Assembly: GCA_038736355.1 (NCBI GenBank)
Contig: JAVYML010000001.1
Coordinates: forward strand, 368,908 to 432,907
Direction: 5' to 3'
DNA: 64,000 nt
Source: Candidatus Hadarchaeales archaeon
GTDB taxonomy: Archaea > Hadarchaeota > Hadarchaeia > Hadarchaeales > WYZ-LMO6
Below are positions 1,341 to 8,039 of this stretch, piece after piece. A program made the translations under genes and the position numbers. Position 1 is the stretch's first letter, and each line of letters begins with the position of its first letter. The notes under the pieces are model-generated. The model searched no databases, was not told the DNA's origin, and saw only the letters and a list, made by a program, of their open reading frames with translations.

Positions 1341-1366
1341 TTTTTTTCTTTTCTTCTTCTTATTGA
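1341..1366 (+). terminator. T-rich transcription terminator
   Basis: A run of T with few C directly after the TAA of the gene at 936 (TAATTTTTTTC, then TTTTC, TTC and TTATT). Archaeal RNA polymerase typically stops at such oligo-T tracts without a hairpin. Confidence 0.5.
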
Positions 1367-1659
1367 TCTGCTGTCGAGGTTTATCGAATTCAAGCTTGCC
1401 GGATTCCCTTTACTCCGCTGCTCAGCACTCCTCTCGCCCGGAAGTCGTAAGAATGAGGGGGAATTTGCCGGTGTGCACCACCTAGAGCTTGGTCGAAAGG
1501 AGCCTAGGTTATTGCAGATATCCTCCCGCCTCGGTATCTTCCCTCTCTGGCACCGGACCTCATCCCCGTAAAGGAGTGCTAGTTTTGCCGAGGTCATGCC
1601 CCTGATCTCATCACACTAGACCACCACCTTGCCATGCCAGGAGTTGAATTGAGCCTAAT
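1367..1659. other. non-coding stretch, nothing recognised
   Basis: About 290 bases without a convincing gene. Minus-strand translation gives a low-complexity, proline- and serine-rich peptide with no family resemblance. I looked for tRNA, SRP RNA and RNase P signatures and found none. One GTGATGA on the minus strand (near 1600) resembles a C box but no D box lies at the usual distance. It borders the accessory island and may hold decayed element DNA. Confidence 0.4.
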
Positions 1660-4600
1660 TCACTCCTTGTGGGGTGAAATCCAACACCAGCAAATCCTCT
1701 TGAGTTTGATTTCCTCCGCTGGTGGTAGGGTTTTACTTTCCTCCAAGAGAGGAGGTATCACTCTCTTTGCTTCCTCCAGTAGCCTTCCTTCCTTCATGGC
1801 CCGGTAAAGCTGGTTCACCAACGTTATCCTATCGCAAACTTCCCTAAAACCTGCGGCCAGTTTTTCCCCCTCATCGCCCAAGCGGCTGAGCTTTTCATAG
1901 ATTTCCCTAGTCTTCCGACCGCCTGGAGGACCCCGAGTCCGCTGACGAATTTTTCTTCTTTCCATTTCCTCGATGAGTTCCAGCTTAACCAGCCTTAAAC
2001 GCTCCACCAGCTTTTCGTAATCTATTCTTTCTCCCCTTCCATTTTCAGACCCTCTTAAAATCTCTATGATCTTGACGGGTGAGGTTTCGGTTTGGGGTTT
2101 ATCGAAATACCTCAACCTCCAATGAATTTCCTTTCCATCGGTGAAGGCCACGAAGAGGGCCTCCCTCTCCCCCTCCATGAAGGAACCTATGCCGTAAGGC
2201 AGTTTCTCCAGCCATTCTTTTCCTTTTTCCCTTAGGATTTCTGCTAGAACGTTGGCGGGATCGTTGGTGAACTGCTCCATCTGGGTTTCGAGGAACCTGA
2301 GTGCTTCATGATCTTCTTTGGAGAGGGCCCTGATCAGCGTAAAGTCCTTGGGGATTGGTTCTTCCCCCAAGACCGAAGCATCAAGTCCCACGGTACTCCG
2401 GATGGCCTCTAACCTCTTACACAACTTTTTCATCAAACCGAGAAAGCGCTCTAGGGTTTCCTCTTCCGGGAATAGGTTGGTTAAATACACAACAGAATGG
2501 GGAGAACCTATCCTGTCCACTCTCCCTGCCCTTTGGATGAGAATCACTGGGTTCCAAGGGAAATCGTAGTTGACCACGTACTGGGCGTTTTGTAGGTTCT
2601 GGCCTGTGCTGAGAATATCGGTGCTGATCATCAGTCCTCCTCTTTTCCGGAATTCTTCTACTCCCTCTGCCTCCTCCATCCTTCTTCCTTGAGGCCCCCT
2701 AGCTCCTTCACCCGTTACTAGGAAGAGGGAGGGATGTTTGAACCTCTCGTATAAGTATCGAGCGGTGTCGGCGTATTGCGTGAAGATGATGATGCCATTA
2801 TTCCCGGTCAGGCTAGGCAAGGTTTCTTCCACCCAGGCTTCAACCCTTTCGAGCTTGGTATCCCTCTCTGGAAGCAGCCTGAGGAGCTCTTGGATTTTTT
2901 CCCTATCCTTCTCACATCCCCTCAAGAACTCTTCGACTTCTGCGGGGGTTAGCCTACATCTTTCCACAAGCTCCGGGTATTTGAGGACTTCCTCGGGTTC
3001 CGGAAATTCTCCTTCCTCTTCCTCCTCTCCAATCAACCAAAATACTTCCCCCCTCACCCGCGGGGGAATGAAAATTCCCTTCTCCTTCGCGTATTTGGCT
3101 GCTCTCTCCAAATAACCCTCCATCCTGTTCAAAGACCTTCGGAAGGCCTCCAAGCTGCTCTCAAGCCTTTTTAGGAGGTTTATCCTTACCACCATCTTTA
3201 CCAATACCTTAAGCTGTTCCAGCTTCTCGGAAGCCATGGCCTCCGAGATGATCTTTCCGTTTGGAAGTCTCAGTTTTCCGCTCAGTTTCTCGACGGAAAA
3301 ATCGTAACACTTGAAATCCATGGATCCTAGAGCCTCCATTATCTTCTCGGGGTCAAAGGGCAAAGAATAGCGGATATTGAGGAGTTTCCTTTCTGGGAAC
3401 TTCACCTCCTTGGAAAGTTCCTTGGCGAAAGCTCTTGAGATTCTTACCACGAACCTTCGGAGAACCTCGTCCATGTTCACAGGTTTTTCTTTCAGCCACT
3501 CCTTCTGTCTGGAGGTAAAGTATCCTCTCAGGGATTCTCCTTCCAAGGCCCTATCGGGCAAATAAAGACTCAGGAGGAAATAGAGATCCATCAAGCTCGT
3601 GTTGACGGGAGTGGCGGTGAGCAGAATCACATCGGCCGGACTCCTGTTGATCAACTCCGCCAAAGCCTGATAGCGGTTGGTAGAAGGATGCCTGAACTGA
3701 TGCGCCTCGTCCACTATGATTAGACCAAGGGGATTCTCTGGATCCAAGAATTTTTCAACCGTTCCCTCGGGGTTGCTGGACAACATCTCGGAGTTGACGC
3801 TTTCCAGCTGAATGTTCATTTTCCTCATCTCCTCCCTCCAAGTGGTTTCCAGCACACTCTTGGGGGCTATGAGAAGGGTGCGGTTAGGCATGGCATCGTG
3901 GGCCAGCGCCAAGGCTACCCTAGTTTTGCCCAATCCCGTGGAATCCGCGATTAAGACGCCGCCCCATCTTTGGAGCTTCAGGCGGGACTCCACCACCGAA
4001 AGACGTTGATGAGGATAAAGTTTCTCAAGAATTTTTTCCTTTTCCTCTATCTGTTCAAGTCCTTCCCTGTAGCTCTCGTAGAGGGCTTTGGCGAGCACCT
4101 CCAAGGGGGTCCAGGTGACGGTGTAGTTTTTGAGCATGGAAAGGAACTCCTCCTTGAAATCCCTTGCCATCCCCCAGACCTCTTGGAACCAATCGAAGAG
4201 CTGTTGAACTGCCAGCGGGTCCGTGTCCACCATGTTGAGCTCACGGTTCTTGACCAGACCGGCATAGGTGAAGTTGCTGGATCCGACCACGGCCACTCCA
4301 TTAGCTTCTTGCGGGCCGGAAATGCCCAGGTAAGCCTTCCCGTGAAAGAAGGGCATCTCCAGAATTCTCACTTCTACCTCCGGGGACTCAAAGTAGGATA
4401 CGACTTCCTGAAGGAGCTTGAAATACTCTGGGTCGTCCTCATTCTCCTCTAGCTCCTTTAGGATTTCATCCTCCCATTTCAGGCTTTCCGTGGGTTCCTT
4501 TCCCAGCAGGAGTTTGAGGGGCTTTCCAACCAAAGCCTCTTTGATGGCACCCCAACCCCGGATGTTGAAGTAGGCCGTGGCAATCATGATTTCATTAGCC

Positions 4601-4668
4601 TTCGCCAGCTCCCTTTTCAGGACCTCCGCCAAGACTTCCTTTCTATTGTCCACTATTCTGGCAGTCAA
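1660..4668 (-). CDS. PLD-like nuclease domain / SNF2-type helicase
   Basis: Large (1002 aa) two-part enzyme. Residues 1-165 are a phospholipase-D-like domain with the half-site H109-G-K111 and GSSNFT (129-134) followed by NRELN. Residues 215-800 are a superfamily 2, SNF2/RapA-type helicase: Walker A STGLGKT (243-249), motif II D320-E-A-H, motif III TATP (351-354), and the C-terminal lobe with STGQNL and QRAGRVDRIG (712-721). A helical, charged tail follows. It should be an ATP-driven DNA translocase with a possible nuclease half-site; proteins of this build occur in defence and restriction islands. The start is TTG, with a TATA box 22-28 bases before it. It faces a broken DUF262-HNH gene. Its lower GC suggests acquisition by transfer. 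Confidence 0.85.
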   Translation of the reverse strand: MTARIVDNRKEVLAEVLKRELAKANEIMIATAYFNIRGWGAIKEALVGKPLKLLLGKEPTESLKWEDEILKELEENEDDPEYFKLLQEVVSYFESPEVEVRILEMPFFHGKAYLGISGPQEANGVAVVGSSNFTYAGLVKNRELNMVDTDPLAVQQLFDWFQEVWGMARDFKEEFLSMLKNYTVTWTPLEVLAKALYESYREGLEQIEEKEKILEKLYPHQRLSVVESRLKLQRWGGVLIADSTGLGKTRVALALAHDAMPNRTLLIAPKSVLETTWREEMRKMNIQLESVNSEMLSSNPEGTVEKFLDPENPLGLIIVDEAHQFRHPSTNRYQALAELINRSPADVILLTATPVNTSLMDLYFLLSLYLPDRALEGESLRGYFTSRQKEWLKEKPVNMDEVLRRFVVRISRAFAKELSKEVKFPERKLLNIRYSLPFDPEKIMEALGSMDFKCYDFSVEKLSGKLRLPNGKIISEAMASEKLEQLKVLVKMVVRINLLKRLESSLEAFRRSLNRMEGYLERAAKYAKEKGIFIPPRVRGEVFWLIGEEEEEGEFPEPEEVLKYPELVERCRLTPAEVEEFLRGCEKDREKIQELLRLLPERDTKLERVEAWVEETLPSLTGNNGIIIFTQYADTARYLYERFKHPSLFLVTGEGARGPQGRRMEEAEGVEEFRKRGGLMISTDILSTGQNLQNAQYVVNYDFPWNPVILIQRAGRVDRIGSPHSVVYLTNLFPEEETLERFLGLMKKLCKRLEAIRSTVGLDASVLGEEPIPKDFTLIRALSKEDHEALRFLETQMEQFTNDPANVLAEILREKGKEWLEKLPYGIGSFMEGEREALFVAFTDGKEIHWRLRYFDKPQTETSPVKIIEILRGSENGRGERIDYEKLVERLRLVKLELIEEMERRKIRQRTRGPPGGRKTREIYEKLSRLGDEGEKLAAGFREVCDRITLVNQLYRAMKEGRLLEEAKRVIPPLLEESKTLPPAEEIKLKRICWCWISPHKE

Positions 4669-4688
4669 GTGGCCGACACCTTCCCTGC

Positions 4689-4697
4689 TTTTATAAG
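4689..4697 (-). promoter_or_regulatory. TATA box of helicase gene
   Basis: On the minus strand this reads GCTTATAAAAGC, centred about 25 bases before the TTG start at 4668, as expected for a leaderless archaeal transcript. It supports the TTG as the true start. Confidence 0.5.
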
Positions 4698-4724
4698 CCT
4701 ATCCTGAATCGAATTAAAAGAAGA

Positions 4725-6297
4725 GATGTATCGGTAGAGAGTGAGGTCGAGTATGATATAATTGACGGCCAGCAGAGACTAACTACACTTCAAGAATTTG
4801 TGCAGAATCCACTTGTCTCCATTACGGAGTGGATCAAGAAACCCAAGCAAGATGATCCCTTTTGGGAACTCTGGGAAAGAGTCGAGCGAATTACAAATAG
4901 GTTGAAATCGAGTAGTTCTACAAAAAGAGAGCTTAGAAAGCAGGTTATAGAGGAGGCGATAAGTCGTTATAATCGTTATAATCCTTCCCAAAAAGCTTCA
5001 CGAGACATTTACAACCCCTTGCTTCAAAAAATGATAGAATTTAGGTCTCGTGTTGTAAGTAGACACGTTCCGGTTCAGATTCTTTCAACCGATACAGCAA
5101 CCGCTGAGAAAATATATGCAACTCTTAATAAGACGGGAACTAGGCTGACTATGGGAGTTGCTTCGAGCAGATCCTCACTTCACAGAAAACGAATATGAGG
5201 GTGATTTCCAGCGTGTGGTGAGTAAAGTAAAAGAACTCTACGAAAAAGGAAAATTTCCGCGAGAAAGGAGTAAGCTATCCATGTGGGATGCGATGTACGC
5301 TTTAGGCGAGTATTATCAACATGTGCTAGCAGGAAAGACACCAGGGAGAGTTGAAGAACTGATTCCAGGAGAATTAAGGAAAGTTGAAATAGATGGTTTG
5401 GGATTTCGACTTGTTAGCGCGTTTCTTTCCCACGAGGTAAACATGGCAAAGACCCAAAGAGTTCTCTCGGACTATTCAAGAGACGATGTTCAAAAGACAA
5501 TCGATGTGTTGTTTCAAACTGCAAATCTTTTAGTTCAAGGAAAGGGAAGGTTTGCCCTAATTAAGCAATATTCTCAACTCAAAGGAGTAATCCTTCCGGC
5601 CTATCCCCTTGTAGGAATAATTATTTGTGCAGCCAAATTTGTGGCTAAAAATTATGCGACCCAAGGTAAATTTATTCTATCTCGGGACGATGGCAAGAAA
5701 ATCAGGAGAGCTACTGAAGAAATCTTCCGAGGATATTTCCTCGGTAAATGGAAAGGAAGCGGGGACAGTAGGTTAAAGGAGTGGTTGGATAGGCACTTTA
5801 GGGAAGTCGATTCTTTCTCGAGTTGGCCTGAAACAATAATTGAGCCATTTCAATCCACTTATAATTCAAAAGAATGGCAACAAGTGTTACGCCAATTAAG
5901 AGAAACTGGAGAGAGAGTGGTAGATAGAGTATCGGCTTGCCTACTCTTTTGGATACAGTACCTCTTCAAGCGTCTCCCCAGTGGAGAGATCGACTTCGAT
6001 CACATCGTTCCCTTCGATTCCGCTTTCAGAGAAACCTCTCACCCCTTTAACATTGCTATCGTACCTAGGCAGATAAACAGGGAAAAAGCTGAGCGAACCT
6101 TTGCTGAATGGAGTGATCGAGCTTTGGAGCGAGCGGTAGAAGAATACAAACATTACGTGATGAATGATTTGGGAAAAAACTTCTTGAAACATGCTACCAC
6201 TACGGGTATTCACGAGTTACTAGAAAAGAGAAGAAAGCTTTTTGAAAGATGCTTCAAGGAAAGACTCCCTCAGTGGCTAGATAACGGTGATGCTTAA
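4725..6297 (+). pseudogene. DUF262 / HNH (GmrSD-like) nuclease, broken
   Basis: Remnant of a DUF262-type protein with a C-terminal HNH nuclease, a design found in GmrSD-like modification-dependent restriction enzymes. The frame carries YDIIDGQQRLTTLQEF (DGQQR motif, codons from 4764) although no start codon precedes it in frame, and the first 60-80 residues of the family are missing. A second motif, IYATLNKTGTRLTM, is cut by one extra G at 5153-5155; removing it restores LTM-ELLRADPHFTENEY and joins the two halves. The C-terminal part runs intact to TAA at 6297 and has IDFDHIVPFDSAF and IAIVPRQINREKAERT, the HNH-type His and Asn region. GC is about 40% in hand-counted lines, well below the flanks, which points to transfer. 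A sequencing error could explain the frameshift but not the missing 5' end. Confidence 0.75.
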
Positions 6298-6506
6298 CAG
6301 AGAAAAAAACCTTCAGATATTACTTTTCGTTTTTAGAGAAGAAAAGGATCCTGCGCGCACCCCATCTCGCACCCATATAGCATTATGATCACACACAATC
6401 TACTTCCCCTCCTTTAAGTGAAGACCAAAGAAAGGACAGGAATTTTCCCCTTCTCGGTCAGACCGGGAGGGAGGAGGATCCCCGTGAGGTATCCCTAGCG
6501 GACTAG
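6298..6506. other. non-coding stretch between two broken genes
   Basis: About 200 bases, A/T-rich at first and GC-rich from about 6440, between the HNH gene and readable integrase remains. No gene is seen. The fragment just before 6507 (GCGGAC then TAG) could be a ruined part of the integrase's SGxR...E motif. Confidence 0.4.
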
Positions 6507-7095
6507 GAAATTCTGGGGCTCAGGGTGGGGGATGTTCAGTTCGACAAGGTCGAAGCCGTGGTCATCGTGAAGGGGGAAAACGGGGGAGCAGGAGGATGAG
6601 GCTCATCGAGTCCGTTCCCGACCTCCAGAGGTCATTTCGAACATGTATTTCAACTGACTACTCAAACGGCTGGCAGAGGCAGCGGAATTCAGAAGAGAGT
6701 TCATCCTCACCTCCTCAGGCACTCAAGGGCCACCCATCTGGCGAAGGTCCTGACTGAGGACCAAGATGAGGGTCTTTTTCGGATGGACCAGGGATTTGGA
6801 TGTCCCGGCCAGGTATGTCCACCTCTCGGGAAGGGATGTGGATGGGGCCCTGGCAGGCTTCTACGGTCTGGGCCGGGAGGACGGGAGGAGGGCCTGTCCG
6901 AGGTGCGGTTTCCTAACCCCCGAGGGCTCCCTCTACTGTCCCAGGTGCTCCTTCGTCCTCTCGGAAACTGAAGCCCTGAGGGTGGAGAGGCTGAAGGAAA
7001 GGGAGGAGGAAATCCTGGAAAGGGTGGTGAGGAAGCTCATCGAAGAACATCCCGATCTCCTTGGCCGGGTCCTGAGGGAGGTGGCGAGGAGTTGA
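6507..7095 (+). pseudogene. tyrosine recombinase/integrase, decayed
   Basis: Archaeal XerC/D-like integrase in pieces. In order: EILGLRVGDVQFDKVEAVVI from 6507; MRLIESVPDLQ from 6596 in another frame; LLKRLAEAA from 6658 in a third; GIQKRVHPHLLRHSRATHL up to LTEDQ (6684-6764); then, after one extra G at 6765, MRVFFGW with the catalytic tyrosine in ARYVHLSGRDV and a zinc-ribbon tail (CPRC, CPRC) to 7095. The HLLRH box and the Tyr of the active site are recognisable, but at least four frame changes and stops separate them, so no functional enzyme can be made. The catalytic N-terminal part and the arm-binding domain are gone. It ends 29 bases from the 3' end of tRNA-Leu, the classical place for an integrated element's recombinase. 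Confidence 0.85.
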
Positions 7096-7126
7096 AAGCC
7101 GGGAAAATTGAACCGTATCAACTTGG

Positions 7127-7211
7127 TGCGGGGGAGGGGATTTGAACCCCCGAACCCCTACGGGACTGGCGCCTCAGGCCAGCGCCTTAGACCTGGCTTG
7201 GCTACCCCCGC
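7127..7211 (-). tRNA. tRNA-Leu (anticodon GAG)
   Basis: Class II tRNA on the minus strand. The acceptor GCGGGGG pairs with CCCCCGC, and the anticodon stem CTGGC/GCCAG encloses the loop CTGAGGC, giving GAG. A long variable arm (CCCGTAGGGG) and the T-loop TTCAAAT are present. Discriminator A is followed by an encoded CCA (7124-7126). Its 3' end faces the decayed integrase. Confidence 0.95.
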
Positions 7212-7250: not shown

Positions 7251-8039
7251 TCAGAGCTTTTCCACCAGCTTCTCCAGTTCCTTGCATTTGCCCGTCAAAG
7301 CCTTGATCGCCTGAAGGAAGACTTGCTCCGGCCTGAGGGAGCCATTGGTTTCAACCCTGAAGATGAACCTGCTATCATCGAAACCCACCCTCACCGCCTC
7401 CCTCTTACATGCCCTCTCACACATCTTACACATCGTGCACCTCTCCACTTCCTTTACCTCCACTTTTCCATCCGAGGGGACGAGGATCTTCGGTGGACAT
7501 ACCTCCACGCAAGCTTCACATCCATCGCACTTCCTCGGATCCACCCTCACCACGGGCATGTACTTGTAGTAGGCCAGGCCAGGCTGCCACTTCGCATGCT
7601 CCCTCCCAAAGCCCAATCTGGCCAGGGCGATCAGCTCCAGCTTCTGCCCCCTCTCCAGTTTCACGATGGGTATGGAGGGACTCACGGGTACCACCTCTTC
7701 GTCCGAGGATTGTAGGTCCCCGCTCATCACCACGCATGGGCCCTCCTTCTTCAGGGAAAAGGTAACCGTACACTTGGGGCATCTTCCCTCCTCGCATTTG
7801 CATTCCTCGGGAAGGACGTATCCCCTGAGGGGGGTACGGAGGGGGATCATCGCCAGACGATGGGCGATGATCTCGTCGTGGAGTGCGGAATCGTTCATCT
7901 TCACCTCCAGCTCATCTATCGCCATGATGGGTACTTCCCTCATGATGGCCCTCCTGAGGGAATTGGCAAAGGCAGGGGTAATGCCCTCCAGCCTGAGCTC
8001 CATCTCCTGTTCCGTGAGGGAAGTTATCTTCACCTCCAT
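7251..8039 (-). CDS. rpoD: DNA-directed RNA polymerase subunit D (Rpo3)
   Basis: Archaeal alpha-like subunit, 262 residues, which with subunit L nucleates polymerase assembly. The N-terminal alpha-like fold (FANSLRRAIMREVP, HRLAMIPLRT) is followed by CKCEEGRCPKC in domain 2 and then a ferredoxin-like insert with two complete cysteine sets, CDGCEACVEVCP and CTMCKMCERACK. These suggest two iron-sulfur clusters, a layout found in some methanogens and related archaea; many archaea have lost one or both. It is last in the S13-S4-S11-RpoD operon and directly follows the S11 stop. The usual next genes (L18e, L13, S9, RpoN) are absent; tRNA-Leu follows instead. Confidence 0.97.
   Translation of the reverse strand: MEVKITSLTEQEMELRLEGITPAFANSLRRAIMREVPIMAIDELEVKMNDSALHDEIIAHRLAMIPLRTPLRGYVLPEECKCEEGRCPKCTVTFSLKKEGPCVVMSGDLQSSDEEVVPVSPSIPIVKLERGQKLELIALARLGFGREHAKWQPGLAYYKYMPVVRVDPRKCDGCEACVEVCPPKILVPSDGKVEVKEVERCTMCKMCERACKREAVRVGFDDSRFIFRVETNGSLRPEQVFLQAIKALTGKCKELEKLVEKL

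Follow-up and report, generated by a model that had tools for sequence, protein, structure and literature searches.

The analyzed window comprises 64,000 nucleotides of a Hadarchaeota genome of 1.27 Mb (four contigs, 95.8% complete). An island of about 5.8 kb (1341–7126) lies between gene blocks that are conserved in Hadarchaeota. The left flank encodes a GTPase (NCBIfam PRK13768), a CoA-binding protein, and a protein of 134 aa, and the right flank begins with tRNA-Leu(GAG), which is followed by the rpoD-rps11-rps4-rps13 block (gene names assigned by eye). The relatives compared include two genomes of the same genus (G001 and G002), one of the same family (G003), and one of another family of the same order (G005). 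In G001, the 134-aa gene and tRNA-Leu are separated by 115 bp, compared with 5.8 kb in the window, and the alignment with this genome agrees with both island bounds. In G002, the site is occupied by genes for an adenosine deaminase and a THUMP methyltransferase, as pieced together from two small contigs that share about 70 bp at their ends. G001 has nothing and G002 has two host-type genes beside the tRNA, and therefore, the ancestral state is uncertain. The island genes were not found at the equivalent site in any relative examined. An earlier note, made from the sequence alone, had placed a helicase-nuclease gene, a DUF262-HNH gene, and a decayed tyrosine integrase between housekeeping genes and the 3′ end of tRNA-Leu(GAG), and had proposed to compare the gene order with that of relatives; the placement, the helicase-nuclease, and the decayed integrase were all borne out. 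As a whole, the locus is a foreign, tRNA-linked, and mostly broken island with defence-type genes (Table 1).

Table 1. Features of the island at tRNA-Leu(GAG), with position in the window, strand, and basis or remark.
Left-end DNA, 316 bp, GC 0.516	1341–1656		Without att copy of tRNA-Leu
PLD-nuclease/SNF2-helicase gene, intact, 1002 aa, restriction-type	1660–4668	-	Pfam, PADLOC
Methyltransferase remnant, last 12 codons and stop (DRLIKAGKVSAT, then stop)	4665–4703	-	Nucleotide homology to G005 ends at 4703; translation
Deletion junction, methyltransferase tail joined to interior of GmrSD-type gene	4703–4704		G005 alignment, profile, translation
GmrSD-type (DUF262-HNH) pseudogene	4704–6297	+	Pfam profiles, translation
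Tyrosine-integrase pseudogene	6507–7146	+	tblastn with intact G010 integrase; frame inspection
att-arm motif ACCANNTNGATACGRTTCAMTT, directly at tRNA CCA	7105–7126	-	Also at G001 integrase loci, tRNA-Gly and tRNA-Tyr
tRNA-Leu(GAG), integration target, left whole	7124–7211	-	ARAGORN and Rfam

The PLDc_2, SNF2-related (SNF2-rel_dom), and Helicase_C domains of the helicase-nuclease all scored above the Pfam cut-offs. The PLD residues H109, K111, S130, and E143 are invariant in ten sequences, and N132 is nearly so. GSS at 129–131, the Walker A lysine K248, and the DExH motif at 320–323 are conserved, and the SNF2-type helicase is complete. The best library matches, the PADLOC candidate "HKD+Snf2" (PDLC01075, E=2e-49) and NCBIfam NF042964 (PLD-domain anti-phage protein), have the same order of PLD followed by SNF2; the former best covers residues 4–641, and the score for the latter is 135, far under its cut-off of 1100. 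SauUSI (PDB 7clg) also combines an N-terminal PLD nuclease with a translocating helicase-type ATPase, and it matches residues 96–284 in sequence and the protein in fold. The AlphaFold model was of modest confidence (pLDDT 72, pTM 0.47), and its fold matches were SNF2 cores and SauUSI only.

The native partner of this protein is an Eco57I-type methyltransferase. In G005, a methyltransferase of 1018 aa (Eco57I, E=7e-26) precedes the helicase gene, with overlapping stop and start codons. The methyltransferase is also found directly upstream of the helicase in G003 and at L060 and L063 (the loci include Calditenuaceae and Aigarchaeota), and its tail alone is readable at L062 and L064, short contigs of Caldarchaeum and Nitrososphaerales. 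Wherever the sequence upstream of the helicase is readable in a close relative, an Eco57I-type methyltransferase precedes the helicase gene. It lies farther upstream, with intervening genes or more distant sequences, in G040, a Thermoplasmata, and several bacterial loci. At the island, the stop codon of the methyltransferase remnant overlaps the TTG start codon of the helicase gene; the C-terminal end of the G005 methyltransferase ORF reads RLIKAGKVLAT. The rest of the source genome did not contain a match to the methyltransferase, and given the completeness of the assembly, a complete copy elsewhere is unlikely. The helicase-nuclease is evidently an orphan, one half of a restriction-modification-like pair of two genes, and this had been missed in the earlier note, as had the deletion of the methyltransferase.

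The nearest relative of the helicase is that of G005, with 87% identity of the protein and 87.8% of the nucleotides, compared with 54% for rpoD of the two genomes. The plain reading of these values is that the methyltransferase-helicase pair moved between families of the order. In G005, 10 bp separate the helicase stop codon from the tRNA-Gly 3′ end, and psmA is the next gene after the methyltransferase. The neighbours of the pair are an EF-1alpha-type GTPase, tRNA-Gly, and psmA; there is no integrase between the pair and the next host gene, and an att repeat of tRNA-Gly was not found beyond the methyltransferase. In a gene-order test of the G005 pair as an insertion, psmA and tRNA-Gly were not adjacent in relatives other than G005. 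Two further loci deserve mention. In G003 (L031 14325–15833, G003:C3), a 502-aa ORF that by eye is tyrosine recombinase-like lies 2.7 kb from the pair; its start overlaps a tRNA-like sequence, and it has no Pfam or NCBIfam match. In the distant archaeon G040 (L035 4026–7717, G040:C10), the methyltransferase and the helicase are separated by three more genes, two of which are related (27% identity), and this locus is a longer version of the system.

By its parts, the pair should be restriction-modification-like. The chemistry that we infer for it draws on SauUSI (PMC7913695) and on a proposal for Type-2 BREX-related systems (PMC12839542): the methyltransferase would mark the host sites and probably carries target recognition, the SNF2 motor would translocate on unmarked DNA, and the PLD domain would cut. 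SauUSI is a stand-alone Type IV enzyme with its own domain for the recognition of methylated DNA, whereas the family described here has a methyltransferase as its partner. The Type-2 BREX-related (DUF499-centred) systems (PMC12839542) share the HKD nuclease N-terminal to an SNF2 helicase and an N6-adenine methyltransferase in the locus. In contrast to these systems, the G005 pair stands alone between tRNA-Gly and psmA; by gene order, the DUF499 ATPase and DUF3780 are absent from both the island and the G005 locus, and membership was rejected. DISARM class 1 was also rejected, as the gene order in the window and in G005 does not show DrmA and DrmB beside DrmD and DrmMI, and matches to DrmD cover only the helicase and are far below the cut-off. 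The results point to a simple two-gene system of methyltransferase and PLD-SNF2 protein, which is intact in related archaea.

On the other side of the deletion junction, the GmrSD_N profile matches 4704–5195 with E=2e-14 at profile positions 56–189, and the first approximately 55 positions are missing. The DGQQR motif is encoded at 4764 and the HNH segment (DHIVP) at 5998, in different frames; the frame changes between about 5147 and 5165, and the match to HNH_4 is weak (E=0.013). The DUF262 gene of the earlier note was confirmed, with the HNH part weak, and its lost start and its frameshift had escaped the note. An error of assembly might account for the frame change but not for the missing start. 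The gene resembles the GmrSD Type IV restriction enzymes (PMC4619093) in the DGQQRLTT motif and in the D-H and N motifs of HNH, which occur in the expected order, but unlike those enzymes it is beheaded and frame-broken, and its HNH match is weak. Homologues were not found in 27 other Hadarchaeota genomes, and viral or plasmid relatives were not found either. One deletion that removed the methyltransferase together with the beginning of the GmrSD-type gene would explain the junction.

Between the source genome and G005, dN/dS of the helicase is 0.15, and 0.06 in the PLD part, and the lineage-specific changes number 29 against 33 (G003 as outgroup), which means no acceleration. As judged from these values, selection acted on the helicase during most of the period since its divergence from that of G005, and it shows no relaxation yet. 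A dN/dS of 0.15 without acceleration implies that either the methyltransferase was lost recently or the protein is still used. The second case would apply if the helicase-nuclease could do without the methyltransferase, acting by itself or together with some other host factor, and were kept by selection. Its frame is intact with all motifs present, its change is no faster than in G005, and SauUSI is a precedent for the restriction of DNA by one PLD-helicase protein on its own (PMC7913695). However, a SauUSI-like recognition domain was not identified in the helicase-nuclease, the pair has been kept in all close relatives, and the divergence measured may have accumulated largely before the methyltransferase was lost. 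On the side of an active orphan, a TATA-like TTATAAAA is present at 4689–4696 on the minus strand, approximately 24 nt ahead of the TTG start codon, where G005 has the coding sequence TAATAAAA. It is possibly a new leaderless promoter, but this argument hangs on one base and proves nothing. A still active orphan is unlikely in our view. Quite unlikely is the special case that the orphan has been selected as a stand-alone restriction factor, with a promoter that would have arisen in the last codons of the methyltransferase and a restriction-modification system that would be turning Type IV-like. Most likely, the orphan helicase-nuclease is inert without its partner and heading for loss.

The 3′ end of the integrase pseudogene extends into the 3′ end of tRNA-Leu(GAG). 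When an intact relative of 434 aa encoded in G010 (Phage_integrase, E=4e-20) was used as the tblastn query, the window matched at 6507–6764 (E=1e-13) and 6628–7080 (E=8e-35), in two different frames. The pseudogene retains box II (HLLRH) and the tyrosine segment (YVHLSGRDVD), and a zinc-ribbon-like segment follows the catalytic domain; the N-terminal half including the box-I arginine is absent, and there are several frame changes. A relative in G001 is 62% identical. The related integrase genes end in tRNA-Tyr and tRNA-Gly (G001) and in another tRNA (G010), in identical orientation. It is documented that archaeal elements integrate at tRNA genes and switch tRNAs among close relatives (PMC8371274); the integrase genes adjoin the tRNA 3′ end as they do here, and the change of tRNA among close integrase relatives is like that in the pT26-2 family described there. 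The present case differs from those integrases in that the gene is broken and has the zinc-ribbon-like segment, and the other end of the element was not found.

The DNA straight after the CCA fits the pattern NNTNGATACGRTTCAMTT at tRNA-Leu in the window and at two sites in G001. The pattern was derived from these three sites, and thus, its exactness there is by construction; they were the only exact matches in 28 genomes, and one match with two mismatches was found beside tRNA-Glu in G005. The number of chance matches expected in the window is zero. Because the motif is shared by three tRNA genes that are unrelated to one another but all accompanied by an integrase of this family, and by no other place, the integrase pseudogene can be tied to integration at the tRNA, and the att-arm motif marks the insertion places of this integrase family. 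The earlier note had also suggested a search for a copy of the tRNA-Leu 3′ end at 1340–1660 and beyond, and this search was negative: neither a second att copy nor a displaced tRNA-Leu 3′ end was present anywhere in the window, 1341–1660 included. Two further identical copies of the tRNA-Leu 3′ sequence occur in the source genome, both as part of complete tRNA-Leu genes. The left-end DNA (1341–1656) also had no homologue in 41 genomes except for short chance matches. An RNA gene in this part was rejected, as there was no Rfam match and the fold was no better than those of shuffled sequences, and so was a tRNA-Gly relic at the left edge, an idea taken from the layout in G005, as the alignment score was inside the range of shuffles. 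A suicidal (SSV-type) integrase element with int(N) and int(C) at opposite ends was considered and rejected, as tblastn over the window revealed no separate N-terminal piece of the integrase and the G010 relative is unsplit. For the intact G010 integrase, an att repeat was not detected within 13 kb, and viral relatives were not found.

The GC content was 0.507 for the helicase gene, 0.418 for the DUF262 gene, and 0.582 for the integrase, compared with 0.566 for positions 7300–64000 of the window. The pieces thus differ (51, 42, and 58%), and therefore, the island is a mosaic. GC values near 40%, which the earlier note had given for parts of the island, apply to the DUF262 gene only; the GC content, which it proposed to plot along the window, does change in steps between the pieces. 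Its reading of an integrated element that brought a defence module and later degraded was only partly upheld. Integration at tRNA-Leu, defence genes, and decay are substantiated by the near-empty site in G001, the integrase remains with the att-arm motif, and the scarred genes. That the element of the integrase brought the defence genes is not: there is no second att, the GC contents are unequal, and the closest helicase relative is located at tRNA-Gly without an integrase. A single element might have delivered all pieces, and several arrivals are possible.

The steps in GC, the frame changes, and a helicase very near that of another family might also result from a misjoining of the island pieces in the metagenome assembly. 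The contig that holds the island is, however, 460 kb long, the flanks to either side of the island are typical of the genus, and the att arm and the integrase piece match loci of the same genus in G001, and thus, we regard such an artefact as very improbable.

The 3′ flank of tRNA-Leu(GAG) is occupied by a nucleotidyltransferase-HEPN pair in G003, an N6-methyltransferase in G005, an archaeal ATPase in G018, the host-type genes in G002, and nothing in G001. Loci with unrelated genes at this flank are L032 (3282–4351), L036 (753–2249), L017 (261–1331), and L033/L034. The flank differs in nearly every Hadarchaeota genome examined and has the appearance of a spot where defence-type genes turn over across the phylum. 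This variety supports an arrival piece by piece, in which the integrase element, the GmrSD-type gene, and the pair came separately, the pair did not come via this integrase, and the integrase pseudogene is an older tenant. The unlike GC of the pieces and the G005 pair without an integrase would fit as well. On the other hand, the integrase pseudogene, the GmrSD-type gene, and the pair are contiguous with short gaps, and the closest relative of the pair likewise adjoins the 3′ end of a tRNA, suggestive of a common mode of moving. Separate arrivals are a realistic possibility that falls somewhat short of probable.

With good confidence, we interpret the island as the remnant of at least one mobile element at tRNA-Leu(GAG), where restriction genes of different origins gathered and then decayed, and an orphan helicase-nuclease remains. 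A tyrosine integrase would have inserted at least one element at the tRNA 3′ end and kept the tRNA whole. The site would have gathered the pair of Eco57I-type methyltransferase and PLD-SNF2 helicase as well as the GmrSD-type gene, which probably encoded a modification-dependent endonuclease. A deletion would then have removed the start of the GmrSD-type gene and all of the methyltransferase gene but the last 12 codons, and the integrase would have shed its N-terminal half and its reading frame. With the integrase broken and the far att site apparently lost, the island would no longer be self-mobile. The kind of island is already known, as PADLOC lists HKD+Snf2 and tRNA integration is documented; its value is the clear record of decay. 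The decay of a mobile restriction island can be read here in an archaeal phylum that is uncultured, and the deletion scar is located to the base.

Two other loci of the integrase family were noted. In G001 (L093 340–3435, 7918–8264), a 1032-aa ORF with an Eco57I-type methyltransferase segment is located 4.5 kb from the integrase remnant at tRNA-Tyr, which is therefore a second site of this integrase family with a restriction-type gene nearby. In G010 (L094 6698–12234), the neighbour of the intact integrase relative is an ORF of 916 aa that by eye is like the primase of a replicating element, and a live element of the family may be present at this locus.
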